Source of the DNA: Candidatus Chloroploca asiatica
Lineage (GTDB): Bacteria > Chloroflexota > Chloroflexia > Chloroflexales > Chloroflexaceae
Assembly: GCF_002532075.1 (NCBI RefSeq)
Contig: NZ_LYXE01000114.1
Span: 1-40,222 of the forward strand
Reading direction: 5' to 3'
Length of the DNA stretch: 40,222 nucleotides
The position numbers and the translations under genes are program-made. Shown here piece after piece: positions 11,239 to 39,805 of the stretch. Under the pieces are notes generated by a model. The model saw only the letters and a program-made list of their open reading frames with translations. It was not told the DNA's origin and searched no databases. Each line of letters starts with the position of its first letter. The first letter of the stretch is position 1.

Positions 11239-11255
11239 TATGAGCACGGAGTGCC

Positions 11256-21500: not shown

Positions 21501-22999
21501 TGACCGACGTGTCCTATGGCACGCATGTGCTGACGCCGACCTTGGCAGGGTACATCTTTACCCCGACGACGCGGACGATCTCCGTGACCGAGGCGCTACG
21601 CGATCAGGACTTCGCGGCGACGCTGCGCACCTTCCCGGTGACGGGGCGGGTGACGGTGGATGGCGTGGGGTTGGCGGAGGTGGTCATTACGGACGGCACG
21701 CGCACCGTGACGACCACGGATACCGGCTTCTATGTCTTGATGAGCGTGCCGTATGGGACGCACATGCTGACCCCGACGTTGGCGAGGTACACCTTTAGCC
21801 CGGCGACGCGCATGATCTCCGTGACCGAGGCGTTAAGCGATCAGAACTTCGCGGCGACGTTGCGCACCTTCCCAGTAACGGGCCGCGTGACGGTGGATGG
21901 CGTCGGCCTGGCGGATGTGCTCATCACGGACGGCACGCGCAGGGCCACGACCGACAGCACGGGGGCGTACACCCTCACGGACGTACCCTATGGGACGCAC
22001 GTGCTGACGCCGACGTTGGCGGGGTACACCTTCACCCCGACGACGCGGACGATCTCCGTGACCGAGGCGCTACGCGATCAGGACTTCGCGGCGACCCTGC
22101 TGACCTTCCCGGTGACGGGGCGGGTGACGGTGGATGGCGTGGGGTTGGCGGAGGTGGTCATTACGGACGGCACGCGCAATGCCACGTCCGATAGCACCGG
22201 GGCCTACACGCTGACCGACGTGCCGTATGGGACGCACGTGCTGACGCCGACCTTGGCGGGGTACACCTTCACGCCGACGACGCGGACGATCTCCGTGACC
22301 GAGGCGCTGATGGGCCAGGACTTCACTGCCAGCGCGACGACGGGGCAGATCCGTGGGCGGGTATTCACCCACCGCGGTGGCCTGGCGGGGGTGGTGATCA
22401 CGGATGGCACGCGGAGCGCGACGACGGACAGCACGGGGGTCTATACCCTGACGGGCGTGCCGCAAGGGACGTGGACGCTCACGCCGACGCGGGAGGGGTA
22501 TGCCTTTACCCCCGCGACGCGGACGGTGACGGTGACGGGTGACCTGGAGGGGCAGGACTTTGTCGCAATTCCGGTGGTGACGGTTGACCCGCTCCTCCAT
22601 GTCAACTACCTGGACGGGGCGCCGGGGAGTACCTTCGTGCTCAGCGGGTTGCACTTCCCGGCCGGGGCGCGGCTCCAGGTGCAGGTCAACGGGGTCGTCC
22701 TCGATCCGCCCTTCATGGCCGATGCTGCGGGGCGCTTCACGCTGCTGTTGACGACGCCACCCGAGGCGGCGGCAGGCCAGTATGTCGTGGTGGTGAGCAC
22801 TGTCCCGGTGGCGCAAGAACGGCAGGTGCAACCGAGCCGTGTGGTACGCCAAACCGCGTACGAACTGGTCACGAGTGGCCCAGCGGCGGTGGTACGCTTG
22901 CCGCTGGACGAGGTGGTTGCCCCTGAACGGACGGTACCGGCGAGCGTTGAGCCGTTGGCCGAGGTGCCACGGGTCTATCTCCCGCTCGTGCGCCGCTAA
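18590..22999 (+). CDS. giant secreted RCC1-repeat / carboxypeptidase-regulatory-repeat protein
   Basis: This gene encodes 1469 residues. The ATG at 18590 follows AGGGGAGG. A signal peptide (1 to about 29) precedes 14 RCC1-type repeats (about 66-610; pattern V-S-A-G-x2-H-T-C-A-V-T, then L-R-C-W-G-x-N). Nine carboxypeptidase-regulatory-like beta domains of about 80 residues follow (about 612-1329; G-R-V-T-V-D-G, D-S-T-G-A-Y-T-L-T-D-V, L-A-G-Y-T-F-T-P). An IPT/filamin-like beta domain (about 1330-1408) and a tail ending R-V-Y-L-P-L-V-R-R complete it. RCC1 repeats form beta-propellers that bind other molecules, and the regulatory domains act as stalks. No catalytic domain is seen, so an adhesive or recognition role on the surface is likely. 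It shares leader, signal and block design with the gene at 24103. Confidence 0.85.
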   Translation: MAHRRCLSLVLVILFALGLPMLVPQAASMAVPPVLEEAPPRSLPIVPEPLSFDLRPPTALGHSTTALPQVIAGGNTTCVINAAGQLYCWGAWSGIPEDLGLVSQVSVGRLHTCAVTEAGAVRCWGDNKNGQATVPADLGAVSQVSAGDKHTCAVTAGGTLRCWGWNDYGQVTVPDDLGAVSQVSAGGSHTCALTAGGTLRCWGRNDDGQATVPADLGAVSQVSAGGSHTCAVTTDGALRCWGWNEYDQATVPGGLGLVRQVSAGTWHTCAVTVAGALRCWESNRAGDQAVVPDNLGVVSEVSAGERHTCAVTTGGSVRCWGYNGNGQATVPGDLGLLGEFGTGSYHTCAVMTTGALSCWGNNWYGQAVVPGDLGTVAQVSLGYYHTCAVTTGGSVRCWGDNQYGQANVPSGLGVVRQVSAGTWHTCVVTTGGSVRCWGDNRYGQAVVPDDLGTVVQVSLGYYHTCAVTTGGSVRCWGDNQYGQGNVPSGLGAVSQVSAGAYHTCAVTTGGSVRCWGHNGCGQTMVPHDLGMVSHVSLGWAHTCAVTDNGTLRCWGQNIDGQAMVPVDLGMVSHVSLGWLHTCAVTASGMPRCWGQNIYGQTTVPRDPMTVRMATVTGRVTLPGGGLAGVELSEGVQTTVTDASGFYTLTDVLQRPITLTPSLAGYRFTPEARTLVLKSDRSGQDFVAEQGEGFTIQGRVILDHRGLPEVRITDGIRSAGTDATGAYTLTDVPSGTWTLTPTLAGYTFTPTTQTITVTGDLDGQDFTATLLTFPVMGRVTVDGVGLADVVISDGTRSATTDSTGAYTLTDVPYGTHVLTPTLAGYTFTPATRSVTVTAALTGQDFLAQAATLLTFPVTGRVTVDGVALADVVITDGTRSATTDSTGAYTLTDVPCGTHVLTPTLAGYTFTPATRSVTVTAALTGQDFLAQAATLLTFPVTGRVTVDGVALADVVITDGTRNATTDSTGAYTLTDVSYGTHVLTPTLAGYIFTPTTRTISVTEALRDQDFAATLRTFPVTGRVTVDGVGLAEVVITDGTRTVTTTDTGFYVLMSVPYGTHMLTPTLARYTFSPATRMISVTEALSDQNFAATLRTFPVTGRVTVDGVGLADVLITDGTRRATTDSTGAYTLTDVPYGTHVLTPTLAGYTFTPTTRTISVTEALRDQDFAATLLTFPVTGRVTVDGVGLAEVVITDGTRNATSDSTGAYTLTDVPYGTHVLTPTLAGYTFTPTTRTISVTEALMGQDFTASATTGQIRGRVFTHRGGLAGVVITDGTRSATTDSTGVYTLTGVPQGTWTLTPTREGYAFTPATRTVTVTGDLEGQDFVAIPVVTVDPLLHVNYLDGAPGSTFVLSGLHFPAGARLQVQVNGVVLDPPFMADAAGRFTLLLTTPPEAAAGQYVVVVSTVPVAQERQVQPSRVVRQTAYELVTSGPAAVVRLPLDEVVAPERTVPASVEPLAEVPRVYLPLVRR
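18788..20420 (+). repeat. 14 RCC1-type repeats (first block)
   Basis: Fourteen repeats of roughly 38 residues are counted by the C-W motif. The first repeat is atypical (T-T-C-V-I-N ... Q-L-Y-C-W-G) and the last ends T-T-V-P-R-D-P, the same start and end as the two blocks in the next gene. Fourteen is twice seven, the blade number of an RCC1 propeller. Confidence 0.85.
20995..21486 (+). repeat. two near-identical 246-bp tandem units
   Basis: Units 20995-21240 and 21241-21486 differ at two positions by eye, one giving Tyr to Cys in the Y-G-T-H motif and one Ser to Asn. Each unit encodes one 82-residue carboxypeptidase-regulatory-like domain. Neighbouring domains in the same gene are clearly more diverged, so this is a recent duplication. 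Confidence 0.9.
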
Positions 23000-23000
23000 G

Positions 23001-23163
23001 CGGGCCGCTGCGGATGCGAGCCGGGCGACCTGCGCCTGGCCCGCATCCACGGCCCCGCCGGGGCTACCTTGTGTGAAAAGCCGCCCCCGATATGCAGAGG
23101 CCGGTCAACGAAAGTCCCTGCTGGGTTCTCGCTCCGGTGGCTCGTCGAGCCACGCGGGGGGGA
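23001..23163 (+). repeat. dispersed hairpin repeat, copy 1
   Basis: The copy starts two bases after the stop of the first RCC1 gene. It contains GGATGCG ... CGCATCC arms, GCCCCGCCGGGGC, and a GGCTCGTCGAGCC palindrome next to CACGCGGGG. The same blocks in the same order and orientation lie at 39689-39805, where the stem is perfect. It may double as a transcript end for this gene, though there is no T-run. Confidence 0.5.
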
Positions 23164-23436
23164 TCTGGTGTGCCCAGGCGACCAGGCTGGCCGCTGTTGG
23201 CGGGGTGAGCGCCAGGATCGCCGGGCCATTGGCGACGGTGCCGTAGACGGGCAAGGGGACGCCAGCGTGTTGCCGGGGTTCCTGGGTCGCATCGTGATCA
23301 TCAGGGGTGCAAGCCACGACAGCGAGCTAGCCTTGGGGCGAGACGTTCTCCAGGTCGTGCGCCGGGGTCTGGATCAAGCCGGGGTATCGGTGGACGGGTG
23401 CGGGTTTATCCGTATGCGCTGAGCTGCTGGCGGCAT

Positions 23437-23462
23437 GCGTCTGCGGGCTTGCCCGCAGACGC
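23437..23462. repeat. perfect 11-bp stem-loop in the intergenic region
   Basis: GCGTCTGCGGG, loop CTTG, CCCGCAGACGC. It stands at the point where similarity to the first leader begins. No T-run follows on the plus strand. Confidence 0.55.
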
Positions 23463-24102
23463 CCTCAGCCCCAGCGTCAACCTCGTACGTAACCCCAACG
23501 TTGAGCCCTGCAACCCCGGCGTTACCCCCAACGCCAGCCTCTGCGCCCGTGACGCAGGGGTGTCACGCAGAGGCCAACGCTGCGGCTCGCGTAGCCCAGC
23601 GAGGCGTTGCATTGCATCAGGACGCGGTGCAAGGGTGGGCGAGCGCCGATGTGTCTGCGCCCGCAACGTCATCTAGCCCCTCCCCGGCGGCGCGTGCGGT
23701 GGGTGGGGTAGGTAGGCGATCATCAGCGGGTTGGTCTAACGCCTGCGCTGATGACGGTGCTCGCCATCGCCTGCGCTGACGGTGCCCCTGGGTCAGCGGC
23801 GCGTGGCTGTGGTCGCGATGATCACTCGCTGCCTGCCGAGGCGCTGCGTCAGGGTGCAAGCGACGCGATCATAGAGCACGCACCAGTCCAGGACGTGGTG
23901 GGGGAAGCGTGTACGGTAAGGACACGGCCGGGCCACGCCCGTGGTTGGCGTGGTCGCTGCCTTGGTGGTGATGCCGCAACTATGCGCTAAAAGTCAAGAG
24001 TCAAACGGGAAAGATGGGTACTCATAGGATGAAAGATATGTAATGCATGGTCGCGGTGTCGGCGTGGGGCTGACCGGGCGACCCGTGAATATGGAGGCCG
24101 TC

Positions 24103-27100
24103 ATGCTCTATCGTCGTTGCCTGCCGCTCGTACTGGTCATCCTGGTTGCCCTGGGGTTGCCCCTGCTAGTGCCCCAGGCTGCGTCGATGGCTGTGCCACC
24201 GGTGCTGAATAAATCACTGGTTCTCTCGTTGCCTGTTGTGCCGGAGTCGATCAGTTTGGATCTGCGTTCACCGACGGCGCTCGGGCTCAGCACCACCGCG
24301 CTGCCGCAGGTGGTTGCTGGTGGCAATACGACCTGTGTGATCAATCTCGCTGGGCAATTGTACTGTTGGGGTGCCTCTTCTAATGTGCCAGCCGACCTTG
24401 GTGTGATCAGCCAGGTTAGTATCGGACGTAGTAAGAACGATAGGAGTAGTTCTTTTCATATCTGTGCAGTTACGCTGGCAGGCGAGGTGCGCTGCTGGGG
24501 GGGTAACGGTTCGGGCCAGGCAACGGTACCGGACGACCTTGGCGCAGTGCGCCAGGTCAGTGCGGGTGGACATCACACGTGTGTGGTGAGGGCGGACGGG
24601 ATACTGCGCTGCTGGGGGGCGAACACTGATTTGAATGGCACCTATGTTGCTCAGGCGACGGTGCCGAGCGACCTCGGCGTGGTCAGTCAGGTTAGCGCAG
24701 GTGAATATCACACGTGTGTGGTGAGGGTAGACGGTACGGTGCGCTGCTGGGGGTTGACTAAGTACGGCCAGGCGATGGTACCGAGCAACCTTGGCACGGT
24801 GCGCCAGGTCAGTGCGGGTTGGTTTCACACCTGTGCGGTGACGACTGCTGGGGCGCTGCGCTGCTGGGGGGCGAACACTGATTTGAATGGCACCTATGTT
24901 GGTCAGGCGACGGTGCCCGGCGATCTTGGTGCAGTCAGCCATGTTAGCGCGGGTGCTGGTCATACGTGTGCGGTGACGACTGCTGGGGCGCTGCGCTGTT
25001 GGGGGTCGAACATTGATACTGATTGGGTTACGCGCAAGTATGTTGGTCAGGCAACGGTGCCGAGTGATCTCGGCGCAGTCAGCCATGTTAGCGCGGGTGA
25101 AGATCACACCTGTGCGGTGACGGTGGACGGGGCGCTGCGCTGCTGGGGAGGAAACTTGTATGGTCAGGCGACCGTGCCGGGCGACCTCGATGCGGTCAGC
25201 CAGGTCACCACGCGTTGGGGTGGCACCTGTGCGGTGACCGCAGGGGCGCTGCGCTGCTGGGGGGCGAATTGGTATGGACAGGCGGAGGTGCCGGCTGACC
25301 TCGGTGCGGTGCGCCAGGTGAGCGAAGGTGGCGAACACACGTGTGCAGTGACGACGGATGGGGCGTTGCGCTGCTGGGGGTACAACCGGTATGGTCAAGC
25401 GACGGTACCGGACGACCTTGGTGCAGTCAGCCAGGTCAGCGCGAGGGAATATCACACCTGTGCGGTGACGGCGGATGGGGCGGTGCGCTGCTGGGGGGAT
25501 AACGGTTCGGGCCAGGCAATGGTACCGGACGACCTTGGCGCGGTGCGCCAAGTCAGCACGAGTTCGTCACACACGTGTGGGGTGACGACGGATGGGGTGC
25601 TGCGCTGCTGGGGGTACAATCAGTACGGCGAGGCGACGGTGCCGGGCGACCTTGGCGCAGTCAGCCAAGTCAGCGCAGGCAAGTCGTACACCTGTGCGGT
25701 GACGACGGATGGGGTGCTGCGCTGCTGGGGGCACAACCAGTACGGCGAGGCGACGGTGCCGGGCGACCTTGGCGCAGTCAGCCAAGTCAGCGCGGGGGAA
25801 TATCACACCTGTGCGGTGACGACGAGTGGGACGCTGCGCTGCTGGGGGTGGAATGACTATTTTCAAGCGACGGTGCCAGGCGCTCTCGGTGCGGTCAACC
25901 AGGTCAGCGTGGGTGGGTATCACACCTGTGCGGTGACGGCGGATGGGGCGGTGCGCTGCTGGGGGAACAACTGGTACGGCCAGACGACGATTCCCCGCGA
26001 TCCGTTGAAGGTACGCGGCGCGGCGCTCCTGACTGGTCAGGTGACCCTGCATGGGCTCGGGTTGGCCGATGTCCGCATCACGGACGGGACGCGCACGGTA
26101 ACGACCACCGCGACGGGAGCCTACACGCTCACGGACGTACCCTATGGCACGTATGTCTTGACGCCGACCCTGGCAGGCTACACCTTTACCCCGGCGACCC
26201 GGATGATCACCGTGACCGGGGATCTCGATGGGCAAGACTTTGTCGCCACCCTGCAGACCTTCCCGGTTCGTGGGCACGTCACGGTGGATGGGGTCGGCCT
26301 GGCGGAGGTGGTGATCACGGATGGTACGCGCAGTGCCACGACCGATAGCACCGGGGCGTACACGCTCACGGACGTGCCGTATGGGACGCATGTGCTCACG
26401 CCGACGTTGGCGGGCTATACGTTCAGCCCGGTGACGCGGACGATCACGGTGACGGCAGCCCTGGCAGGCCAGGACTTCGCGGCGACGCTTCGCAATGTTG
26501 CACTGCCGCAGGTGATCGCTGGTGGCTATCGAACCTGTGTGATCAACCGCGCCGGGCAATTGTCCTGCTGGGGTCACAATTCTGATGTGCCGAGCGACCT
26601 CGGCGCGGTGCGCCAGGTCAGTCTGGGTTGGGGTCACATGTGTGCGGTGATGATGGACGGCGTGCTGCGCTGTTGGGGAAGGGACGACGACGGCCAAGCG
26701 ATAGTGCCGGATGAGCTCGGTGCGGTCAGCCAGGTCAGTGCGGGGAGCTATCACACCTGTGCGGTGACGACAGACCGGACATTGCGCTGCTGGGGGCGGA
26801 ACACTCAGAATGGCATCTTCATAGGCCAAGCGACGGTGCCGAGCGACCTCGGCGCGGTCAGCCAGGTCATCGCGGGCGATGCGCACACCTGTGCGGTGAC
26901 GGTGGACGGGGCGCTGCGCTGCTGGGGGAACAACGGCAACGGCCAGGCGACGGTGCCGGGCGGCCTCGGCCCAGTCAGCCAGGTGAGTGCAGGTACGTGG
27001 CACACCTGCGCGGTGACGACGGACGGGGCGCTGCGCTGCTGGGGGTACAACGGGAACGGCCAGGCGACGGTGCCGGACGACCTCGGCGTCGTCAGTCACG

Positions 27101-30100
27101 TCAGCCTGGGTTCGGATCACACCTGCGCAGTGATGGCGGGTGGGGCGCTACACTGCTGGGGGAGCAACCAGTATGGCCAGGCGACGGTGCCGGGCGACCT
27201 TGGCGCGGTGGATCAGGTGAGCTCGGGTAAGGAACACACCTGTGCGGTGACGGTGGCCGGGGTGCTGCACTGCTGGGGGAATAATAACCTCATGGGCGAG
27301 GTGACGGTACCAGGCGACCTCGGCGCGGTGGATCAGGTGAGCGCGGGTAAGGAACACACCTGTGCGGTGACGGTGTCTGGGGTGTTGCACTGCTGGGGGA
27401 GCAACGGAAATCGTCTGTACACAACTCGCCAGGCGACGGTGCCAGCCGACCTTGGTGCGGTGGATCAGGTGAGCGCGGGTGATGCGCATACCTGTGCGGT
27501 GACGACGGACGGGGTACTGCACTGCTGGGGGCAGTACCGAACGGTGCCGAGCGACCTCGGCGCCGTCAGTCAGGTCAGTGCGGGGAGCGCGCACACCTGT
27601 GCGTTGACGACGGATGGGGTGCTGCGCTGCTGGCCGGAGAACATCCACGACGGGGCAACGGTACCAGCCGACCTTGGTGCGGTGAGCCAGGTCAGCGTGG
27701 GTGGCTCGCACACCTGTGCGTTGACGACGGACGGGGTGTTGCGCTGCTGGGGGTGGAACCTGCCCGGACAGACAGACGTGCCAGACGTGCCGGGCGACCT
27801 CGGCGCGGTACGCCAAGTCAGCGTGGGGAATTCATACGCGTGTGCGGTGACGGCGGACGGGGCGCTGCGTTGCTGGGGATCCAACGCATACGGCAAGACG
27901 GATGTGCCGGGCGACCTCGGCGCAGTGGATCTGGTGAGTGCGGGTAGGGAACACACCTGTGCGGTGACGGTAAATGGTGTGCTGCGCTGCTGGGGATCTA
28001 ATGGGGCAAGCCAGGCAACGGTGCCGGGCGACCTCGGCGCAGTGACCCAGGTTAGCTTGGGTGAGATGCACACCTGTGCGGTGACGGTCGACGGGGTGCT
28101 GCGCTGTTGGGGATCGAACGAATACGGCCAGACGACGGTGCCACGTGATCCGTTGAAGGTACGCGGCATTGCGCTCCTGACTGGTCAGGTGACCGTGAAT
28201 GGGCTTGGGTTGGCCGATGTCCGTATCACGGACGGGACGCGCACGGTGACGACCACCGCAATGGGGGCCTACACCCTCACAGATGTCCCCTATGGGACGC
28301 ACGTGTTGACGCCAACCCTGGCGGGCTACACCTTTATCCCGGCGAACCGGACGATCACCGTGAGCGGCGATCTCGATGGACAAGACTTCGCCGCCACCTT
28401 GCTCACCTTCCCCGTGACGGGGCGGGTGACGCTGGACGGCGTAGGCTTGGCCGATGTGGTCATCACGGATGGCACCCGGAGTGCCACGACAGATAGCACG
28501 GGGGTATACACGCTCGCCGATGTGCCGTATGGCACGCACGTACTGACACCAACCCTGGCGGGGTACACCTTTACCCCGACGACGCGGACGATCTCCGTGA
28601 CCGAGGCGTTACGCAATCAGAACTTCGCGGCGACGCGGCTGACCTTCCCGGTGACGGGGCGGGTGACGGTGGATGGCGTCGGCCTGGCGGATGTCGTCAT
28701 CACCGATGGCACCCGGAGTGCGACCACCGACAGCACAGGGGCCTACACGCTCGCCGATGTGCCGTATGGCACGCATGGGTTGAGCGCAATGCGGGCGGGC
28801 TACACCTTCACGCCAGCGATCCGCACGGTGATGGTCACGGAAGCCCTGGCAGGCCAGAACTTTGCGGCGACGCGGCTGACCTTCCCGGTGACGGGGCGGG
28901 TGACGGTGGACGGCGTAGGCTTGGCCGATGTGGTGATCACGGATGGTACGCGCACCGCCACGACCGATAGCACGGGGGCGTACACGCTCGCCGAGTTGCC
29001 GTATGGTTCGTATGTGCTGACCCCAACGTTGGCGGGGTACACCTTCACACCAGCGCAGCGCACGGTGCTGGTGAGGCAAGCGTTGGGAGGCCAGGACTTC
29101 GCCGCGACGCAGCAGACCTTCTCGGTGACGGGCCGGGTGACAGTGGAGGGTGTGGGCCTCGCCAGTGTGAGCATCTCAGATGGGACGCGCACTGCCGCGA
29201 CCGACGCCAACGGCTACTATACTCTCAGCAGTGTTCCGGCGGGCATCTACACCCTCACGCCCTCGCGCAGCGGCTACAGCTTCAGCCCTACCAGCCTGAG
29301 TGTCACTGTCAGCAGCAGCCTCACCAACCAAGACTTCACGGCCACACTTTTGACCTATAGCGTGAGCGGGCGGATTACCAGCGGCGGCGTGGGGCTCGCC
29401 GACGTCACGGTCTCGAACGGCACTTACAGTGCTATCAGTGACGGTAGCGGGAACTACAACCTTAGTACTCTGCAAGCAGGAAGCTATACCCTGACCGCCA
29501 CCAAAGCCGGTTGTTCGTTTATCCCATCCTCAGTGCAGATCACGCTGCCACCGACGACGAGCGATCATAACTTCACGGCCATGTGCAGCACACCTGAAGC
29601 CACCTGGACGATGCTGCTGTATCTGGCGGGCGATATAGAAGATGGCGGGAAGCAGATAAATGCGTTTACCCTTGTACGAAACCGCTTGCGCCAACACTTC
29701 CGCAACTCCTCTGTGCGTATCGCCATTCAAATTGATGGCCCAGGCAGCAATGACACGCGGCGCTACCTCATCAGCCCGGGTACAGAAACGACTGCCCCTC
29801 AGGAAACAGAGATCCTTATTGATGAACAGGCAATGGATACGCCCCAATCCCTTGAGGCGTTCCTTCTCTGGGGACAGGAGCAACTCCCTGCGCAGTACTA
29901 CTACCTGGCAATTGCCAATCATGGCCAGGCCATTCAGGGGATCGCCTGGGATCATACCAGCGACCATCGCGATGGATCGCTCGACAACAATGCCTACCTT
30001 ACTCCGGTGGAGATCCGTCAGGCTCTGAGTGCCCCAGGAGTGGAGCCGATCGCAGTGTTGCACCTAGACGCATGCTCGATGAATCTGATCGAGGTGGCGT

Positions 30101-30876
30101 ATGAGGTGAGAAACCAAGCACGCCTGCTCATTGCATCGCAGTACATTAGCTGGAGCTACTATGCATATGACGAATATCAGCGCCTCATTACCTCAGCGAC
30201 GACCCCCGCCGATCTCGCCCGCGGGATCACCATATCCTATGCCAGCCGGGCTCGCGCTGACAAAAACCCATTTACGATCTCAGCCCTGGATTTACAGCGG
30301 GTTGAACCAGTAGCAGCGGCGGTAAATGCTCTCGCTGCCGAGTTGAAGGGGTTGGTCGATGCAGATCAGGGCTATGCAGTGCTCCTGGATGAGGTCTGGC
30401 GAGCAAGTCGCAAGTTTACCAGCAATCAGGACTATTTCAATAACGAAGACGACGAGTATATCGATCTGCTCGATTGGACCACGCGTATTCGGGCAACGAT
30501 CAGCACTCCTGGAGTGCAGACTCACGCGACCACGCTGATCACGGAGTTAACGGGGCCTCAGCCATTTATTCTGAAAGACGCAGCGTTTGCTCAGAGCAAT
30601 GCGTTGCGGCCCCAATGGGGTGGCGGGGCTTACATTGATTTGACGAATAGCTCTGGGGTCTCCATTTTTTACCCGCAACGCCACGATAGTGTCGCCTTTG
30701 ACCACTACATCAACGATCGCCTCTTTACCTTCAGCAAGGAGACTCGCTGGAAAGATTTCTTGCTCGCTGGGGTAGGGCCGCTGCCCCCGCCAGGGGAAAA
30801 CCTTCGGCCGCTTCCCGGCCCACTCGCGCCACTGGATGTAGAGTATCGGGTGTTCTTGCCGCTGACGATACGCTGA
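24103..30876 (+). CDS. giant secreted double RCC1-block protein with C11 clostripain-like protease domain
   Basis: This gene encodes 2257 residues. The ATG at 24103 follows GGAGG. The order is: signal peptide (1-30); RCC1 block of 14 repeats (about 67-636); two carboxypeptidase-regulatory-like domains (about 640-798); a second block of 14 RCC1 repeats (about 801-1353); six regulatory-like domains (about 1356-1827); a C11 peptidase domain (about 1833-2213); and a tail ending R-V-F-L-P-L-T-I-R. The protease has M-L-L-Y-L-A-G-D, His1940 in A-N-H-G and Cys1991 in L-D-A-C-S-M, the clostripain dyad. Such enzymes cut after Arg or Lys and are often secreted and self-processed. The next gene starts 37 bases downstream, suggesting an operon. 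The protease portion has less extreme GC than the repeats. Confidence 0.85.
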   Translation: MLYRRCLPLVLVILVALGLPLLVPQAASMAVPPVLNKSLVLSLPVVPESISLDLRSPTALGLSTTALPQVVAGGNTTCVINLAGQLYCWGASSNVPADLGVISQVSIGRSKNDRSSSFHICAVTLAGEVRCWGGNGSGQATVPDDLGAVRQVSAGGHHTCVVRADGILRCWGANTDLNGTYVAQATVPSDLGVVSQVSAGEYHTCVVRVDGTVRCWGLTKYGQAMVPSNLGTVRQVSAGWFHTCAVTTAGALRCWGANTDLNGTYVGQATVPGDLGAVSHVSAGAGHTCAVTTAGALRCWGSNIDTDWVTRKYVGQATVPSDLGAVSHVSAGEDHTCAVTVDGALRCWGGNLYGQATVPGDLDAVSQVTTRWGGTCAVTAGALRCWGANWYGQAEVPADLGAVRQVSEGGEHTCAVTTDGALRCWGYNRYGQATVPDDLGAVSQVSAREYHTCAVTADGAVRCWGDNGSGQAMVPDDLGAVRQVSTSSSHTCGVTTDGVLRCWGYNQYGEATVPGDLGAVSQVSAGKSYTCAVTTDGVLRCWGHNQYGEATVPGDLGAVSQVSAGEYHTCAVTTSGTLRCWGWNDYFQATVPGALGAVNQVSVGGYHTCAVTADGAVRCWGNNWYGQTTIPRDPLKVRGAALLTGQVTLHGLGLADVRITDGTRTVTTTATGAYTLTDVPYGTYVLTPTLAGYTFTPATRMITVTGDLDGQDFVATLQTFPVRGHVTVDGVGLAEVVITDGTRSATTDSTGAYTLTDVPYGTHVLTPTLAGYTFSPVTRTITVTAALAGQDFAATLRNVALPQVIAGGYRTCVINRAGQLSCWGHNSDVPSDLGAVRQVSLGWGHMCAVMMDGVLRCWGRDDDGQAIVPDELGAVSQVSAGSYHTCAVTTDRTLRCWGRNTQNGIFIGQATVPSDLGAVSQVIAGDAHTCAVTVDGALRCWGNNGNGQATVPGGLGPVSQVSAGTWHTCAVTTDGALRCWGYNGNGQATVPDDLGVVSHVSLGSDHTCAVMAGGALHCWGSNQYGQATVPGDLGAVDQVSSGKEHTCAVTVAGVLHCWGNNNLMGEVTVPGDLGAVDQVSAGKEHTCAVTVSGVLHCWGSNGNRLYTTRQATVPADLGAVDQVSAGDAHTCAVTTDGVLHCWGQYRTVPSDLGAVSQVSAGSAHTCALTTDGVLRCWPENIHDGATVPADLGAVSQVSVGGSHTCALTTDGVLRCWGWNLPGQTDVPDVPGDLGAVRQVSVGNSYACAVTADGALRCWGSNAYGKTDVPGDLGAVDLVSAGREHTCAVTVNGVLRCWGSNGASQATVPGDLGAVTQVSLGEMHTCAVTVDGVLRCWGSNEYGQTTVPRDPLKVRGIALLTGQVTVNGLGLADVRITDGTRTVTTTAMGAYTLTDVPYGTHVLTPTLAGYTFIPANRTITVSGDLDGQDFAATLLTFPVTGRVTLDGVGLADVVITDGTRSATTDSTGVYTLADVPYGTHVLTPTLAGYTFTPTTRTISVTEALRNQNFAATRLTFPVTGRVTVDGVGLADVVITDGTRSATTDSTGAYTLADVPYGTHGLSAMRAGYTFTPAIRTVMVTEALAGQNFAATRLTFPVTGRVTVDGVGLADVVITDGTRTATTDSTGAYTLAELPYGSYVLTPTLAGYTFTPAQRTVLVRQALGGQDFAATQQTFSVTGRVTVEGVGLASVSISDGTRTAATDANGYYTLSSVPAGIYTLTPSRSGYSFSPTSLSVTVSSSLTNQDFTATLLTYSVSGRITSGGVGLADVTVSNGTYSAISDGSGNYNLSTLQAGSYTLTATKAGCSFIPSSVQITLPPTTSDHNFTAMCSTPEATWTMLLYLAGDIEDGGKQINAFTLVRNRLRQHFRNSSVRIAIQIDGPGSNDTRRYLISPGTETTAPQETEILIDEQAMDTPQSLEAFLLWGQEQLPAQYYYLAIANHGQAIQGIAWDHTSDHRDGSLDNNAYLTPVEIRQALSAPGVEPIAVLHLDACSMNLIEVAYEVRNQARLLIASQYISWSYYAYDEYQRLITSATTPADLARGITISYASRARADKNPFTISALDLQRVEPVAAAVNALAAELKGLVDADQGYAVLLDEVWRASRKFTSNQDYFNNEDDEYIDLLDWTTRIRATISTPGVQTHATTLITELTGPQPFILKDAAFAQSNALRPQWGGGAYIDLTNSSGVSIFYPQRHDSVAFDHYINDRLFTFSKETRWKDFLLAGVGPLPPPGENLRPLPGPLAPLDVEYRVFLPLTIR
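24310..26010 (+). repeat. 14 RCC1-type repeats (second block)
   Basis: Fourteen C-W repeats start with T-T-C-V-I-N-L-A-G-Q-L-Y-C-W-G and end with T-T-I-P-R-D-P-L-K-V-R. Some blades carry insertions, for example N-T-D-L-N-G-T-Y-V. Confidence 0.85.
26510..28160 (+). repeat. 14 RCC1-type repeats (third block)
   Basis: Fourteen C-W repeats start with R-T-C-V-I-N-R-A-G-Q-L-S-C-W-G and end with T-T-V-P-R-D-P-L-K-V-R. Repeat 10 has C-W-P in place of C-W-G and several blades have L-H-C-W. It is a separate copy of the block design, joined to the previous block by two regulatory-like domains. Confidence 0.85.
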
Positions 30877-30913
30877 CGGTCACACATGTTCGATTGGTGC
30901 CCTGGAGGGAGTA

Positions 30914-33900
30914 ATGCATCTATTCCGTCGCTCACAGCTCTATCTCATGGCAGCCCTGCTGCTTACGCTGCTGCCGATCACGGGGCTACCGGCGCAGGCT
31001 GCCGCCGAGGCTCCCTGGCAGCCCGCTGCGCCTGTGGCCCGTCGCGATCACACCATAGCGGCCGCTGCGAATCGTGTCTTTCTCTTTGGGGGCTTCGCGG
31101 CCAGCGGCACCCAACGCCACCTCAATGATCTCTGGAGCTGGGACGGCAGCACATGGAGGCTGATTGCCCAGGAAGGGCCTCCCCCACGACGACGGGCCGC
31201 CATCGCCTACGATGCAGCCCGGGGCGAGTTGGTGCTCTTTGGCGGATGGAATGGCAACAGCGAGCTTGGCGACACCTGGATCTGGAATGGGGCAAGCTGG
31301 AGCCAGCGCATCCTGACGCCAGCCCCCCCGGCACGTCAGTACCATGCGATGGCCTACGATGCGGCCCGTCAGCAGGTAGTGCTCTTTGGGGGCAGCGGTG
31401 GCGGTGAACTGAGCGACACCTGGATCTGGAATGGGGCAAGCTGGACCAAGCATACCCAGACGCAACTTCCTTTGGCTCGCCAGCAACACGCTTTGGCCTA
31501 TGATGCCGTGCATGCACAGGTAGTGCTCTTTGGGGGTCTGAGCGGGAGCACACGCCTGGAAGACACGTGGGTGTGGGACGGCACGAGTTGGGGTTTGCAA
31601 GCATCAGTAGCGGGCCCCGCAGCCCGCACTGGGCTTGTGTTGGCGACCAGTGCGCGTGGCGTGCTCCTGTTCAGCGGCGATGATGGCACTAATCTGCGGA
31701 ACGACCTCTGGGAGTGGGATGGGGAGGCGTGGAGACAGGCGACAGACAGCCCTGGGCCTGCGGCCCGCGTCGGAAGTGCTGGGGCTTTTCTCGCCGATAA
31801 CCAACAGGTTATCCTCTTTGGAGGCAGCGGGATGAGCAGCCTCCTTGCCGATACCTGGGCCTGGGATGGCGTGACATGGTCGATCAAACCAGGCCAGCTT
31901 ACCCCCTCCGTACGCAGCCAGCATGCACTTGTCGATGATACCGCGCGCGGGCAGATCATGCTCTTTGGCGGGACTGACGGGAACAACGCCCTCGCCGACA
32001 CCTGGACTTGGGAGGCGGCGGCTGGCTGGCAGCAGCGCACCCCCGGGCAGGCCCCCAGCCCCCGCTTCGGCCACGCCCTGGCGTATGACCCACTGCGTGA
32101 ACGCGTGATCTTCTTTGGAGGGTTCAATACGACCAGCCGTAATGACACCTGGGAGTGGGATGGACTGACCTGGATCCAGCGAGCACCACCCCGATCACCG
32201 CCACCACGCTGGGGCCACACGCTGACGTATGACACGGCGCGCGGGCGGCTCCTGCTGTTCGGCGGTGCCTCCAGCACGACTGGCTTTTACAGTGATCTCT
32301 GGGAGTGGGACGGCACGACATGGACGCAGCTTACCACATCCCAACCGCCTCCCGCTCGCCGCAATCACGCGGCGACCTATGACAGTCTGCGCAGCCGCCT
32401 GATCATCGTTGGCGGCTACCAACTTAGTGGCAGCACGCCCACCTACTTTGATGACACCTGGGAGTGGGATGGCGCGACCTGGATCGAGCGGAACCCCCTT
32501 ACTAGACCACCGGGCCGCTTCGGGCACACCTTGGTCTATCAGCGGGCCCAGCGGCGCACGATCCTGGTCGGCGGGAGCGGGGCTACGACTATCCCTGATA
32601 CCGTGTGGGCGTGGGATGGCATCAACTGGCAGCCGCTCAATGCGGGCTCCGTCCCCCAGGCCCGCTCATTCCACGCTAGCACCTACCAGTCCGCGACATG
32701 CCGAACGCTGCTCTTTGGCGGCATGGGCAGCGAGGCACTGGCTGATACGTGGCAGCAGACAGCAGCTGTCTGTACGCCGGCCCCGACAGCACAGATCGAT
32801 AGTCTCGACCCCAACCCCGCCAACCGCAGCGAGGACACGATCACTCTGATCGGGAGCGGTACTGTGGCCCTGGGCACTGGGCTGAGCATCACTAGCTATC
32901 GCTGGCTACTCGATGGGCGCACTATGCTAGGCAGTACCGCCATGATTACCGTAAGCGGCTCCACCCTGGCTGTTGGCAACTACACCGTATCAATGGAAAT
33001 CCAAGATAGCGCTGGCGTGTGGTCATCGCCCGTGACACGTACCCTGCAGATTATCGACCACCCAAATCTAACGGTAAGCCTGGAGGATATCTCGGCCACA
33101 CTGGTTAGCGGGGAACAGACTGAACGAACGCTGACGATCGGCAATACAGGTGGGAGTCCACTCAACGTCCAACTCAGCCTCATGGTGGGCGCCGCTGCAA
33201 CAGCAAGTATGGGTGAGTACCCGACACCGGAGCGCACGACGATCAGCCTCCCGCGCGTCTCTAGTTTGACTCCAGGGCTCGACCCGCGACTGCGCCCCTT
33301 TGTGACAGCGCAAAGCTCGGGCCATGCAACCTTTCTCATCTTTATGGATCGGGTCGCCGATTTGGCACCGGCCTACCAAATCACAAACTGGCGTGATCGG
33401 GGTCGCTTCGTAGTTCAGCGACTCCAGCAGGTCGCCACCGAGAGTCAGACCAGCATACTCGCCTACCTCCAACATCAGCAGGAGTTAGGTGCCGTAAGTA
33501 GCTATCGCTCGTTCTACAGCCTGAATGCCGTCGCGGTCACTGGCGATGCAGAGACTCTCCGTCATCTGCTGACCGAACCCACCATCATTGCAATCACTAT
33601 CAGTGAGGTGTTTTCACTCCCAACAGCCGCACTTGCACCAGCCCAGGTCGTGGCTCAGACGAGTGGTGTGCGCTGGAACATTAGCCGCATCGGTGCTGAT
33701 CGAGTCTGGACCGAACTGGGACTGCGGGGCGAAGGAGTGGTTGTCGGTGGGCTCGACACGGGGGTGGCCTATGAGCACCCGCTCTTGCGCCAGAATTATC
33801 GGGGTCTCCAGCCTGACGGCAGCTACGACCACACGTATAGTTGGTTCGACCCTACTGATACGTTTCCGAATAGTCCTGGCGACAACCAGGGGCATGGTAC

Positions 33901-35146
33901 GCATACGATGGGCACCATCGTTGGATCCGATGGCATTGGAGTAGCGCCAGCTGCCCGTTGGATTGCGGCCAAAGGCTGCGCTGGAACCGGATGTCAGGAT
34001 ATTGATCTGCTTGCCAGTGCCGAATGGTTGCTTGCCCCCTATCCAGCGTTCACTGGCCCGGCGGCCGCAAACCCTGACATGCGCCCAAGGGTGGTCAATA
34101 ACTCCTGGGGTGGTGCAGGCGGACGTCCACTCTTTGAGCACATTGTTTCAGTCTGGCGTGCAGCCGGAATCTTTCCGGCCTTTGCGGCAGGCAACTGTGG
34201 TGTTGCTGCGCGGGGCTGTCAACGTATTGGTGACGGAAGCATCGGCTCACCGGGCGACTATGCCGAGAGTTTCGCCTCGGGCGCAACCTATGCCAACGAT
34301 GCGCTCGCTGATTTCAGCAGCCGGGGTCCATCGTTACTGACCCCCAACACCAAACCCGATCTTTGTGCGCCCGGGCATGATATCGAGTCGAGTATCCCGG
34401 GTGGAAGCACACTACGCTTGTCAGGCACATCAATGGCTAGCCCCCACACCGCCGGGACGGTGGCGCTCATCCTCGCTACGCGGCCGGGGTTGGACGTTGA
34501 CCAGATCGAAGCGATCTTACGGGGTACGGCCACCGACCTCGGCCCAAGTGGGCCAGATCCATCTTTTGGCTATGGCTTGCTCAATGCCTATGCGGCAGTG
34601 CGAGCAGCCCAGAACGGTATGGCATGGGTTCGTCTTCCGCAGACCTCTGCGCTGATTTACCCAGGTTATGAGCTTAGCCTGCCTATTACCTTTGACGCCC
34701 GTGGGCTCCCCGCAGGGCGGTACCAGGCGACCCTTCTGGTACACAGTGATGACCCCAGTCAGTCCGAAAGTCGGATCCAGTTACAACTCTCAGTCCAGGC
34801 CTCTGCCCAGAAACAACGGGTGTTGATCTCGCATGTGACAGCCTCTGGGATGTTGGTGCGCTGGAGCGCCCCGGATGGGAAGATCGCCCGCCTGGAATAT
34901 GCTCTAGACGCAGACGGACCATGGAACCATCTGGCTGGCGTAAGTGGATCCGTCGCCGGCGAAACGTTCCTAGTTTTGCGAGGGCTGCAATCCGACACAA
35001 CCTACTACCTTCGGTTGATTGCCGTTGATGGAAGGGTCGAAGATAACCGAGGTCGCTACTACCAGGTCACTACGAGCCCGCCGTTACCGTTTGGAGTCAT
35101 CAAGGAGTCGTCATACGCCGTCTATCTGCCACTGATGCAGCGCTGA
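30914..35146 (+). CDS. secreted Kelch-repeat / subtilase (S8) fusion protein
   Basis: This gene encodes 1410 residues. The ATG at 30914 follows GGAGGGA. A signal peptide (1-30) is followed by 12 Kelch-type repeats (about 33-616; L-F-G-G ... D-T-W-x-W-D-G), enough for two six-bladed propellers. Then come a PKD-like domain (about 626-715), a second beta domain (about 720-760), an I9-like propeptide (about 803-905) and a peptidase S8 domain with Asp948 (G-L-D-T-G-V), His994 (G-H-G-T-H-T-M-G) and Ser1173 (G-T-S-M-A-S-P-H). A fibronectin-III-like domain (about 1297-1390) and a tail ending A-V-Y-L-P-L-M-Q-R follow. The triad looks intact, so this should be an active secreted serine protease with an inhibitory propeptide. 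An internal propeptide-protease behind propellers is an unusual order. It is probably co-transcribed with both neighbours. Confidence 0.85.
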   Translation: MHLFRRSQLYLMAALLLTLLPITGLPAQAAAEAPWQPAAPVARRDHTIAAAANRVFLFGGFAASGTQRHLNDLWSWDGSTWRLIAQEGPPPRRRAAIAYDAARGELVLFGGWNGNSELGDTWIWNGASWSQRILTPAPPARQYHAMAYDAARQQVVLFGGSGGGELSDTWIWNGASWTKHTQTQLPLARQQHALAYDAVHAQVVLFGGLSGSTRLEDTWVWDGTSWGLQASVAGPAARTGLVLATSARGVLLFSGDDGTNLRNDLWEWDGEAWRQATDSPGPAARVGSAGAFLADNQQVILFGGSGMSSLLADTWAWDGVTWSIKPGQLTPSVRSQHALVDDTARGQIMLFGGTDGNNALADTWTWEAAAGWQQRTPGQAPSPRFGHALAYDPLRERVIFFGGFNTTSRNDTWEWDGLTWIQRAPPRSPPPRWGHTLTYDTARGRLLLFGGASSTTGFYSDLWEWDGTTWTQLTTSQPPPARRNHAATYDSLRSRLIIVGGYQLSGSTPTYFDDTWEWDGATWIERNPLTRPPGRFGHTLVYQRAQRRTILVGGSGATTIPDTVWAWDGINWQPLNAGSVPQARSFHASTYQSATCRTLLFGGMGSEALADTWQQTAAVCTPAPTAQIDSLDPNPANRSEDTITLIGSGTVALGTGLSITSYRWLLDGRTMLGSTAMITVSGSTLAVGNYTVSMEIQDSAGVWSSPVTRTLQIIDHPNLTVSLEDISATLVSGEQTERTLTIGNTGGSPLNVQLSLMVGAAATASMGEYPTPERTTISLPRVSSLTPGLDPRLRPFVTAQSSGHATFLIFMDRVADLAPAYQITNWRDRGRFVVQRLQQVATESQTSILAYLQHQQELGAVSSYRSFYSLNAVAVTGDAETLRHLLTEPTIIAITISEVFSLPTAALAPAQVVAQTSGVRWNISRIGADRVWTELGLRGEGVVVGGLDTGVAYEHPLLRQNYRGLQPDGSYDHTYSWFDPTDTFPNSPGDNQGHGTHTMGTIVGSDGIGVAPAARWIAAKGCAGTGCQDIDLLASAEWLLAPYPAFTGPAAANPDMRPRVVNNSWGGAGGRPLFEHIVSVWRAAGIFPAFAAGNCGVAARGCQRIGDGSIGSPGDYAESFASGATYANDALADFSSRGPSLLTPNTKPDLCAPGHDIESSIPGGSTLRLSGTSMASPHTAGTVALILATRPGLDVDQIEAILRGTATDLGPSGPDPSFGYGLLNAYAAVRAAQNGMAWVRLPQTSALIYPGYELSLPITFDARGLPAGRYQATLLVHSDDPSQSESRIQLQLSVQASAQKQRVLISHVTASGMLVRWSAPDGKIARLEYALDADGPWNHLAGVSGSVAGETFLVLRGLQSDTTYYLRLIAVDGRVEDNRGRYYQVTTSPPLPFGVIKESSYAVYLPLMQR

Positions 35147-35178
35147 ATGTTGCCGAGAGACAATCCAAGGAGAACACC

Positions 35179-38100
35179 ATGTCATCCACTTCTTCGCACG
35201 CTCACTGGTTCATATGTCTATTGATCGTGGTCATGTTCGCAGGTGGGGCTCTCGGAAGCGCCCCGCAGGTAGTGGCACAGAATCCAAAGCCCGCCGACAC
35301 CAACTTGATCCTGTCTGGCCAGATCAACCTCGCCCCAAGCGTATACGTCTTCGCCCAGAGCAGCACCGCTTTTGGGATCTACTATCTCAACGGCAGCGAT
35401 TGGCAGTTGATTACCTCGATTCCAGTCAGTGCGGTCACCGTGGACAGCGTACATGCCAAACTCTCGCCAAACGGGGCCAACGTCGCATACATGGTGACAG
35501 ATGGCGATACGGGTAATAGTGCACTCTACACCTCAAACCGCTTCGGCATCGGGATCACGCTGGTCTACAGTAGCGTCGAGCCCAGCATGGCCGTGACGTC
35601 ATTTGCTTGGCGCGGGGACGACCAGGTCGCTTACACCCTCAAGCGCGGGCCGTTCGCCGCCGAAGCCAGCAATGGCACCGCCGCCAATCCTGCGGAACAG
35701 GCCGCCGATAGCCCCTACGCGGGTGAAGTCTGGCTGAGTAGCTTGGATGGGATCGAGCAAACCCAAGTCGTGAGCCAAACGGCTGGCCTGGTCATCGGCA
35801 GCCTCGATGCGAACGCGCCGATCTACTACACGGCGGTCAATACCCAGACCGAGACGTTGATCGGCCTCAACAGCATCGCCGCTGACGGGAGCATCGCCGA
35901 ACTCTTCCGCACCCAGGTGGACGAGCAAGGGCAAGGCACGGTGTACCACTCCTTCGATCTCGTCCAGACCGCACCAGGGGTGAGCAAGCTTGCGATGGTT
36001 CACACCGCAAGCGCAGGTGATAGCCCCTTCATGGTTGCGAGTACCTTGAGTACGGCCAATCTGGATGGCTCGAATGTACAGTCAGTGCTTAACTCTGACG
36101 GGCTTATTCAATCTGCGCAATGGTCGCCTAAGGGCAGCAAAGTCGCCTATGTGACTGCTCAGGCTCAACTCTTCACGTTTGATCTAGCCACAACCAGCGA
36201 CACCCTGGTTGGTAGCGGAGTTCAAAGCGCAATTCAGTGGGCATCTGACGAAGTGGGTATCGTAACAGTTGCTGCGCTTGATAGTGCGACCACACCCTTT
36301 GTGCATGGCGCATCAATGCTGGCCTTAAATGGGCAGGAACTTGGCACCCTCTCAACCAATGCCACGATTCAATCTACGCGCACCCAGGAATTTCGTATTC
36401 CAAGCACCGTACCCTTCATTCATCAAGTCTACGATACGATGGATAACGTTGGCGGCTATTGGTCGTGTGGGCCGACATCAGCGGCAATGGTTCTCGCCTA
36501 CGCTGGGTTGCTGCCAGCACGATCTGATACGGTCAATCCACAGAGCCAAATGGTCAACGGAAGGATGATCAAGGGACCAGTAGGGCAGCGTACCAGTCCG
36601 TATGGGTGGTACATCTCTGAAGATTTTACGAATGCCAGAGGTCATCGATTCAACAACCCTGGAAATGACAGTGATTCTCGATGGTTCTACAAGCAGGATA
36701 TCAAAGGGTTACACGGTGCTGCTACGCGTGGTGGATTGGCAAGCATTGAGTGGATACGGGCTAATATCATGATCCCGTTCGGTGTGGATTATTTTGTCCC
36801 CCAGAATGCCAATTTAAACACTGTGGTTGCGGCGCTTGATCGCGGCAATCCGGTAGTTATACATTCCACGAACAAGGGACATCTGATGGTCGCCGTTGGC
36901 TATAATCGCTATAGTAACGGCGATGTTCGTCTCGTAGTAAACGACCCCTTTGGTCGCGAGATAAACGGGAATTACTATACCAATGGGGGGTATCCGAACA
37001 CAGAAGGATCGTATATCGAGTACACATGGGCGCAGTTCCCGGTGACTCATATGCTAGAGGCAAGAGTCAGTGAGCGGATTATTCGTCCTGACCAGTGGCG
37101 GGGAGAGTATTATAACAACACGAACCTCTCTGGCACGCCTGCACTGGTGCGTGGTGACGACGCCATCAACTTCGACTGGGGCAGCGGCAGCCCGCAGGCC
37201 GGTGTGGTCAACGCCGACAACTTCTCGGTACGTTGGACCAGGGAAATCGATCTTCACTCTCACGCCGTCTACCGTTTCTCAACCTTCTCAGACGATGGCA
37301 TCCGACTGTTCATCAATGATCGTCCGGTGCTCAACCGCTGGGATAACCACGCACGTCTAGCAGTCCAGACCGACGTCTATCTCCGCGCAGGCAAGCACAA
37401 AATTAGGGTGGAGTACTACGAGGCATGGGGCGGGGCTACCGCTATCGTTAACTGGTGGATGGCTGGTTCCTCGCCCGATAATTGGACTGGCAGTTACTTC
37501 AACAACACGACGCTCAGTGGCGACCCGGTCTTTCTGCGCCAGGATCCCAGCATTAACTTTAACTGGGGCCGGGGCAGCCCCGGATCGGGCGTGAATAGCG
37601 ATAACTTCTCGGTACGCTGGACGCGCAGCCTGTACCTGCCCGGTGGTGCGTGGCGGTTCTATACGAGCAGTGACGATGGCAGTCGGGTCTTCCTGAACAA
37701 TAGCAGTCAGCCAGTCGTCAACCAGTGGTGGGATCATGGCGCACGAACCGAATACTCAGGCTACCAATACCTCAATGCTGGCAACCACGATGTGCGCGTT
37801 GAGTTCTACGAGCGTTGGGGCGACGCTTCAATGGCCTTCGGTTACCAGCCCAAGATCTGGGCCGAGTATTACGACCAGCCGAACCACCGTGGCACCAAGC
37901 GGACTGCCGTCCTCAGTTCTGTAGACCAAAACTGGTGGTGGGGCGGGCCGCATAGTGCGTGGTGGCAGACTCAGGATAGATTCTCGACGCGCTATACCTG
38001 GCCAGTCAACTTAGCAGGGGGGGAATATAAGATCTGCGTCGACTCAGACGATGGCTTCCGGTTCTTTGTTGACGGACAGGTGAAGATTGACTATTGGCAA

Positions 38101-38439
38101 GATAATAATTCGCAGATCTGCCGAGTTGTGTCGATCAACGCAGGGTGGCGTACCTTCCGCATTGACCACTATGAGAACCAGGGTGGCGCACGCATACGGA
38201 TGACCTGGGGACGCAATAACGGAGTTTGGTACGGCGTTGCCCAACCATCGCTGCAGAACACTGACGAGGTGGTGTACATCACCGACGATCAGGCAGCGCT
38301 CGCGATAGTGACCCCGGCTACAGTAAACACAATGGAAGAATACTTCCAGTTGATGCATGAGCAGGGCACCCTAGGCCCGGGCATTGAAGCCACGGAGCAG
38401 TCATTTACCCAGATCTGGCTACCGCTAATTCAGCGCTAG
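35179..38439 (+). CDS. secreted propeller-like / C39-like peptidase / triple PA14 protein
   Basis: This gene encodes 1086 residues. The ATG at 35179 follows AAGGAG, 32 bases after the subtilase gene. A signal peptide (1-34) precedes a TolB/WD40-like beta-propeller portion (about 40-390; A-Q-W-S-P-K-G-S-K-V-A-Y). A C39-like cysteine peptidase domain (about 410-630) has Cys430 in S-C-G-P-T-S-A-A-M-V-L, His568 in G-H-L-M-V-A-V-G-Y and Asn588-Asp589 in N-D-P-F-G. Three PA14-type domains follow (about 635-764, 765-890 and 894-1015; W-R-G-E-Y-Y-N-N, F-S-V-R-W-T-R, S-D-D-G-I-R-L-F-I-N). The tail ends Q-I-W-L-P-L-I-Q-R. PA14 domains commonly bind glycans. The peptidase section has noticeably more A/T than its flanks, suggesting a transferred module. 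It is the last gene of the apparent operon. Confidence 0.85.
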   Translation: MSSTSSHAHWFICLLIVVMFAGGALGSAPQVVAQNPKPADTNLILSGQINLAPSVYVFAQSSTAFGIYYLNGSDWQLITSIPVSAVTVDSVHAKLSPNGANVAYMVTDGDTGNSALYTSNRFGIGITLVYSSVEPSMAVTSFAWRGDDQVAYTLKRGPFAAEASNGTAANPAEQAADSPYAGEVWLSSLDGIEQTQVVSQTAGLVIGSLDANAPIYYTAVNTQTETLIGLNSIAADGSIAELFRTQVDEQGQGTVYHSFDLVQTAPGVSKLAMVHTASAGDSPFMVASTLSTANLDGSNVQSVLNSDGLIQSAQWSPKGSKVAYVTAQAQLFTFDLATTSDTLVGSGVQSAIQWASDEVGIVTVAALDSATTPFVHGASMLALNGQELGTLSTNATIQSTRTQEFRIPSTVPFIHQVYDTMDNVGGYWSCGPTSAAMVLAYAGLLPARSDTVNPQSQMVNGRMIKGPVGQRTSPYGWYISEDFTNARGHRFNNPGNDSDSRWFYKQDIKGLHGAATRGGLASIEWIRANIMIPFGVDYFVPQNANLNTVVAALDRGNPVVIHSTNKGHLMVAVGYNRYSNGDVRLVVNDPFGREINGNYYTNGGYPNTEGSYIEYTWAQFPVTHMLEARVSERIIRPDQWRGEYYNNTNLSGTPALVRGDDAINFDWGSGSPQAGVVNADNFSVRWTREIDLHSHAVYRFSTFSDDGIRLFINDRPVLNRWDNHARLAVQTDVYLRAGKHKIRVEYYEAWGGATAIVNWWMAGSSPDNWTGSYFNNTTLSGDPVFLRQDPSINFNWGRGSPGSGVNSDNFSVRWTRSLYLPGGAWRFYTSSDDGSRVFLNNSSQPVVNQWWDHGARTEYSGYQYLNAGNHDVRVEFYERWGDASMAFGYQPKIWAEYYDQPNHRGTKRTAVLSSVDQNWWWGGPHSAWWQTQDRFSTRYTWPVNLAGGEYKICVDSDDGFRFFVDGQVKIDYWQDNNSQICRVVSINAGWRTFRIDHYENQGGARIRMTWGRNNGVWYGVAQPSLQNTDEVVYITDDQAALAIVTPATVNTMEEYFQLMHEQGTLGPGIEATEQSFTQIWLPLIQR

Positions 38440-39690: not shown

Positions 39691-39805
39691 GGGCCGCCGT
39701 GGATGCGGGCAGGGCCGAATGATCACTGCCCGCATCCACGGTCCCGCCGGGCCTATCCGCCGCCCCCGCGTTCGAGCGGCTCGTCGCGCCACGCGGCGGG
39801 GTGTC
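39689..39805 (+). repeat. dispersed hairpin repeat, copy 2
   Basis: A perfect 16-bp stem is formed by CCGTGGATGCGGGCAG (39697-39712) and CTGCCCGCATCCACGG (39726-39741). CCCGCCGGG and the GGCTCGTCGCGCC / CACGCGGCGGGG blocks follow, matching 23001-23163 in order and orientation. It lies between the truncated tnpA and the DUF2726 gene, and may mark the joint where tnpA was lost. Confidence 0.55.

Follow-up and report, generated by a model that had tools for sequence, protein, structure and literature searches.

The 40,222-nucleotide stretch of Candidatus Chloroploca asiatica contig NZ_LYXE01000114.1 analysed here (the window, to which all coordinates refer) encodes four giant proteins, each with a hydrophobic, signal-peptide-like segment close to the N-terminus and each ending in a short tail built around Leu-Pro (Table 1). 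An earlier note on this DNA had read the four C-terminal sequences as variants of [VI][YFW]LPLxxR, and all four do have this form. As the note had also maintained, no membrane helix follows the motif, which ends at the stop codon in every case, so that the combination of LPXTG-like motif, membrane helix and basic tail that marks LPXTG proteins is absent. The proteins had been described as otherwise unrelated. This holds for their last domains, but not for proteins 1 and 2 as wholes, which are partly paralogous and share RCC1 repeats, carboxypeptidase-regulatory-like domains and near-identical signal peptides (at 18590-18690 and 24100-24230, respectively). Similar signal peptides are found in the tail-bearing open reading frames (ORFs) of loci L050 and L051, and this likeness suggests, at the level of sequence, a recent duplication within the family of proteins with such tails.

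Table 1. Giant exported proteins of the window and their C-terminal tails, with the loci that have a stalk-protein gene upstream of a PorU-like C25 gene
Feature	Coordinates	Strand	Description
Exported giant protein 1	18590..22999	+	1469 aa; signal peptide, RCC1 repeats, carboxypeptidase-regulatory-like repeats, PGS Ig-like domain, YLP-like tail
Tail of protein 1, VYLPLVRR + stop	22973..22999	+	ends RVYLPLVRR
Exported giant protein 2	24043..30876	+	2277 aa; RCC1 repeats, carboxypeptidase-regulatory-like repeats, peptidase C11 (clostripain) domain, YLP-like tail
Tail of protein 2, VFLPLTIR + stop	30850..30876	+	ends RVFLPLTIR
Exported giant protein 3	30914..35146	+	1410 aa; Kelch repeats, subtilase S8, Ig-like and fn3 domains, YLP-like tail
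Tail of protein 3, VYLPLMQR + stop	35120..35146	+	ends AVYLPLMQR
Exported giant protein 4	35179..38439	+	1086 aa; C39-like peptidase, PA14 domains, YLP-like tail
Tail of protein 4, IWLPLIQR + stop	38413..38439	+	ends QIWLPLIQR
Stalk-protein loci upstream of PorU-like C25 genes			L243, L246, L248, L249, L250, L251

The strict DNA pattern, consisting of the tail and a stop codon, has 29 matches in this genome and 4 for a reversed control; the tail occurs more often than by chance. Because a looser pattern in which the last residue is free barely exceeds its own control (76 versus 67), only ORFs that had been checked for frame were counted. By this count the genome has no fewer than 48 ORFs with the tail or a near variant of it at their end: 33 that are 120 residues or longer, 10 with relaxed last positions and 5 further carriers (giants on C187, C59 and C98, a C25 protein on C49 and an ORF ending LYLPAMMR). 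Among the first 43 carriers, in which L-P is fixed by the search pattern, the residue before the Leu is Tyr in 30, Phe in 8, Trp in 3 and Leu in 2. The last residue is Arg in 36 of these 43, a figure inflated by the first pattern, which nearly required Arg. The strict protein motif is found internally only once in the 57,332 residues of the 43 ORFs; this copy, VWLPLIQR, lies ∼93 residues into the tail-bearing ORF of locus L045.

The carriers also stand out at their other end. A signal-peptide-like N-terminus is present in 37 of the 38 carriers with a readable start (the starts of the other five being unreadable). Among 223 control ORFs taken from these stretches it is present in 88. The export rule is crude, and the controls, which are the longest non-overlapping frames, perhaps include non-genes and count 4 YLP-like ORFs among them. 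The earlier note had been prepared to abandon a C-terminal signal if the motif were equally common in cytoplasmic proteins or showed no enrichment at C-termini, and neither outcome was found. The tail was also encountered in a sample drawn blind to it. Fourteen ORFs with a DUF11 domain were collected, nine of which have a readable C-terminus (four run past a contig end and one was not retrieved). Four of the nine end in a YLP-like tail, two of these being variants (VFLPLIVRR and VVLPLIMR), three end in an LPXTG-like motif with a helix, and two in neither.

The carriers are of many kinds, including several peptidases (subtilase, C11, C39). If the tail were merely a remnant of a last domain inherited from a common ancestor, with no function of its own, the partial paralogy of proteins 1 and 2 would be expected, but 102 Pfam families occur in the last 1,000 residues of the 43 carriers, no family in more than 8 of them, and the consensus of 33 aligned ends is essentially the tail only. 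A common last domain is thus ruled out, and we regard shared ancestry as an extremely improbable explanation. Two orthologues of protein 3, at 62-63% identity, end RIYVPLIQR and QVYLPLVQR, and the ∼10 residues that precede these tails mostly differ. A wider set of 30 S8 loci similar to protein 3 has 23 readable ends, which comprise the query, the two orthologues, 10 looser tails from the window's order, one LFLPTISR and 9 tailless ends, among them all 5 of genus g5. Some of the looser tails lack the proline (VIIVMVYR, IYLLVVFR). Within this family, none of these 23 readable ends shows a YLP tail exchanged for an LPXTG tail, or the reverse. The subtilases of ∼980-1060 residues at L163-L178, spread across the window's order, constitute a natural series of tail variants that runs from near-consensus to proline-less forms and to absence in genus g5. 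The common core is thus a short run of hydrophobic residues that in most cases contains L-P and in most cases has a basic carboxyl end, and the tail may be written as a hydrophobic residue, an aromatic residue, L-P, two hydrophobic residues, any residue and a carboxyl-terminal residue that is usually basic.

A motif of this kind has already been named. Release 20 of NCBIfam holds two models, NF050076 (sort_motif_YLP) and NF053834 (ultrashort_CTERM), both titled "YLP-box putative sorting motif-containing protein". We take this name to mean that an exported protein has a short Y-L-P motif at its very C-terminal end, and this is true of the window proteins. Formal membership, with whole-protein cut-offs of 15 bits for NF050076 and 10 bits for NF053834, is another matter. 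Protein 1 scores 9.9 and 9.7 bits, respectively, both under the cut-off, and proteins 2-4 give no match to either model at E<=1, so that none of the four qualifies. When the last 60 residues are scored alone, which is not the curated test, tail 1 reaches 13.7 bits with NF050076 and 13.8 with NF053834, tail 3 reaches 14.0 with NF050076, and tails 2 and 4 match neither model. Cut to 60 residues in the same way, six of six further ends of this genome score above 15 bits against NF050076. Among 10 other tail-bearing ORFs of the genome scored whole, 1 passes NF050076, 4 pass NF053834 and 5 show neither; among the 33 ends, at E<=10, NF050076 matches 22 and NF053834 18. The genome therefore encodes proteins that NCBIfam would call YLP-box. 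The window tails are, by sequence and carboxyl-terminal place, the same motif, yet their four proteins are not formal members.

The catalogue listing names no machinery for the YLP-box, in contrast to the enzyme that we propose below. Our literature search found no paper that uses the term "YLP-box", and searches pairing Chloroflexota names with sorting or sortase returned nothing on the tail in titles and abstracts. The text matches to "YLPL", among the matches listed, are unrelated by title and abstract. Papers on GlyGly-CTERM and PEP-CTERM, scanned for Chloroflexus, Herpetosiphon and Roseiflexus, gave a single table mention of Chloroflexus aurantiacus.

We compared the tail with known carboxyl-terminal sorting signals and their enzymes. 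All whole-genome searches were made within the phylum of the window's genome, those for the strict pattern and for exosortase in a sample of 201 genomes. The likeness to LPXTG and sortase is clear enough: L-P stands in a carboxyl-terminal signal, the proteins are exported and rich in repeats, and both classes occur in this genome. A degenerate sortase substrate, with L-P read as in LPXTG, might be expected from the presence of sortases in 20 of the 20 genomes of the window's order, with 5 copies in this one. However, the YLP tail has neither T-G nor a membrane helix, and the LPXTG-like proteins with a helix form a separate class beside it; of the five sortase genes, those on C126 and C72 have such a protein as their neighbour. 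The tail is also found where sortase is not. Genome G160, which is 97% complete, has 19 tail matches versus 5 for the control; 16 were fetched and 13 proved to be real ORF ends, all with K, R or H as the last residue and with a hydrophobic N-terminal segment in 10 of the 10 whose start is readable. No sortase was found in G160 at E<=10 (PF04203), and no exosortase was matched. Its sister G191, also with no sortase found, has 6 tail matches versus 4, and three of four fetched are looser tails on plausible ORFs, which makes it weaker evidence than G160. Because G160 has 13 frame-checked tails and neither enzyme is detectable there, we conclude that neither sortase nor exosortase is needed. A sortase gene missed in G160 is possible but unlikely. 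Sortase as the reader is ruled out on these grounds, and the idea of a degenerate sortase substrate, contradicted by G160 unless the sortase lies outside PF04203 or in the missing part of the genome, is highly improbable.

PEP-CTERM with exosortase, GlyGly-CTERM with rhombosortase and MYXO-CTERM with myxosortase offer a second parallel, in that a common carboxyl-terminal tail is carried by otherwise unrelated exported proteins. Rhomboids are widespread. The PEP-CTERM, GlyGly-CTERM and MYXO-CTERM signals have a membrane helix, and the YLP tail differs from all three in having none. Exosortase was unmatched in all 20 genomes of the order and matched in 16 of the 201 genomes of the phylum sample; it is ruled out as the reader. 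The GlyGly-CTERM and MYXO-CTERM signals are called tripartite in the abstracts of the papers on them.

The best reading is that the tail is very probably a post-export sorting or anchoring signal, in keeping with the export context of its carriers, the diversity of their last domains and the retention of the tail in orthologues. The earlier note's proposal of a secretion, assembly or anchoring signal stands to this extent, although the motif was already catalogued as the YLP-box. The tail could instead help large exported proteins to be released, to fold or to pass quality control, for instance as they cross an outer layer, with no part in anchoring. Many carriers are indeed very long, multi-domain and exported, but short ones exist as well (ORFs of 91 and 155 residues in G160 and of 203 and 225 residues in G191), and other exported DUF11 proteins of this genome use an LPXTG-like motif with a helix; we consider such a role improbable.

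If the tail is a sorting signal, a cysteine peptidase of family C25, a homologue of PorU, the sortase of type IX secretion, is the best candidate for its reader. All 9 tail-bearing genomes that were searched have peptidase C25 (PF01364), against none of 14 control genomes from other groups. There were 20 matches, and the 12 strong ones were analysed. The PorU model NF033707 matches 11 of the 11 C25 proteins scanned (seven genomes, the window's own among them, contributed nine; G191 and Herpetosiphon one each) with scores of 89-290 bits, and the best match ends at profile position 728-736 of 1095 in every one. When one copy was compared with solved structures, PorU (6za2, E 3.8e-9) ranked first, followed by gingipain R (1cvr, E 6.3e-4). 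One His and one Cys column, which we take to be the catalytic pair of the C25 family, are invariant in 7 of 7 aligned proteins. Moreover, 8 of the 11 C25 copies with readable ends themselves terminate in a YLP-like tail, including both copies of this genome (IFLPVVGR and LFLPVVNR); the other three comprise one ending FLPVIFAP and two that are tailless.

Half of the readable C25 loci (6 of 12, Table 1) have, directly upstream of the C25 gene, a gene for an exported proline/threonine-rich stalk protein with a terminal helix. Three of the six stalk proteins contain a DUF11 domain; one has a classical LPETG, and the others have looser or doubtful relatives of it. On C98, a tail-bearing DUF11 giant, a stalk protein and a PorU-like gene lie in a row. 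The PorU-like protein Haur_5106, from Herpetosiphon aurantiacus plasmid pHAU01, ends VWLPLVGWE and lies three genes from a VirB4-like gene.

In the mechanism that we propose, the carriers would leave the cell by means of their N-terminal signal peptides. The ultrashort YLP-box-like signal, placed after the last folded domain, would come into play once the protein has been exported to the envelope, where machinery other than a PF04203 sortase or an exosortase would read it. The PorU-like C25 peptidase, as the most likely reader, would cleave at the tail or immediately ahead of it and attach the cargo to the outer layer of the envelope. That this enzyme recognizes the tail is a tentative proposal, for which we would claim something short of an even chance, and the complete sequence of recognition, cleavage, transfer and attachment to an outer layer is put forward just as guardedly. 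The signal itself is well supported; the enzyme is a lead.

Several observations weigh against this assignment. The nine C25 genomes were picked for their tail matches, and within the phylum the comparison covered tail-bearing genomes alone, so that 9 of 9 comes without a base rate. All 11 NF033707 scores fall under the equivalog cut-off of 420 bits, which makes these proteins homologues of PorU and not equivalogs. Four of the eight C25 tails have another residue in place of the aromatic one. Of the two tailless copies, one is from G080 and the other from G191, where, as in one more of the nine genomes, no sortase was found; the copy of G160 has an unreadable end and was left out of the PorU-model scan. 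No cleavage site is evident. An AlphaFold2 model of the last 484 residues of protein 4, from a 9-sequence alignment, is confident in the PA14 part, and its final 74 residues, including the tail, have a block-mean predicted local distance difference test score (pLDDT) of 32-53 with no stable fold predicted. Finally, the C25 proteins could be mere cargo, like the tailed subtilase, C11 and C39 peptidases.

This last point leads to an alternative in which the tail is never cut off and docks onto a receptor of the envelope or outer layer, possibly by joining it as an extra beta strand. A membrane anchor would need to be longer than this tail, several carriers besides C25 are peptidases, so that C25 would not be special, and the subtilases of the order that have lost the proline while keeping the hydrophobic stretch and the carboxyl-terminal Arg (VIIVMVYR, IYLLVVFR) suit a strand better than a protease site. 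On the other hand, no candidate for the receptor emerged, none of the 9 tail-bearing genomes gave a match to SLH domains, which are a known means of non-covalent anchoring, and the segment close to the tail of protein 4 is modelled by AlphaFold2 as helix instead of strand, albeit weakly (pLDDT 40-48). Docking without cleavage is quite conceivable, but we lean against it.

The proposed PorU-like reader invites comparison with type IX secretion, where PorU carries the sorting signal of its own cargo. The C25 enzymes described here are related to PorU and likewise often carry the signal of their presumed cargo. The signal itself differs: in type IX secretion it is an Ig-like C-terminal domain of ∼70-100 residues, whereas the tail here has 8-9 residues, and no type IX sorting-domain family appears among the profile matches of the four window proteins. 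Together, the YLP-box and a PorU-like C25 transpeptidase might constitute a second, independently built PorU-type sorting system, in a phylum reported to be without the BAM and LPS genes of an outer membrane. In it the short tail would replace the Ig-like domain; the enzyme is often tailed itself and is encoded beside a proline-rich membrane-stalk protein in about half of the loci, and the system would decorate the outer layer of Chloroflexota filaments. We consider this broader picture rather unlikely as a whole.

The signal may, as the earlier note suggested, be specific to Chloroflexota, the phylum to which the whole-genome searches were confined. Within it, the strict pattern is patchy. 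Its excess is largest in the window's family f1 (96 matches versus 18 for the control in 11 genomes, with none in G078) and weaker in f2 (28 versus 17 in 6 genomes) and f20 (29 versus 20 in 13 genomes). Counts are close to the control in f14 (3 versus 2 in 15 genomes), f11 (6 versus 5 in 9) and f23 (2 versus 3 in 12). Twenty matches selected from 17 other genomes include 18 that are the ends of ORFs of at least 331 residues and two in short frames. Plasmid pHAU01 of Herpetosiphon aurantiacus encodes longer tails, AYLPLTTRGE and VWLPLVGWE (L253, 23903-25561 and 34312-36897), and because these extend past the strict motif, the strict counts are too low in the Herpetosiphon lineage.

The region at 2040-18474 contains genes resembling those of a conjugative element, for an NlpC/P60 protein, a TrwB/VirB4-like ATPase, an AAA protein and a Replic_Relax protein, and because the four giants directly follow these genes, the YLP cargo is probably carried on a mobile element or plasmid. 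The closest plasmid matches of the VirB4/TrwB-like ATPase are on two plasmids of Herpetosiphon aurantiacus, a member of Chloroflexota (best 29.6% identity over 97%). Directly past the fourth giant, pieces of a Tn3-type transposase occupy two ORFs on the reverse strand (38614-39853).

The envelope to which such proteins might be sorted is itself of interest. A 2026 study of a Chloroflexota filament (PMC13319060) reports several envelope layers, whose identity it calls unclear, and no BAM or LPS genes. It also gives such genes as absent in Chloroflexota and outer-membrane markers as lacking. A sorting tail of the kind described here may serve this outer layer. The tail is essentially a named motif, and its machinery was not described in the literature that we searched. 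Carried by dozens of exported proteins and working with neither sortase nor exosortase, it suggests that these bacteria have a sorting route not yet described, and the PorU-like enzyme, as the best candidate for the reader, makes that route directly testable.

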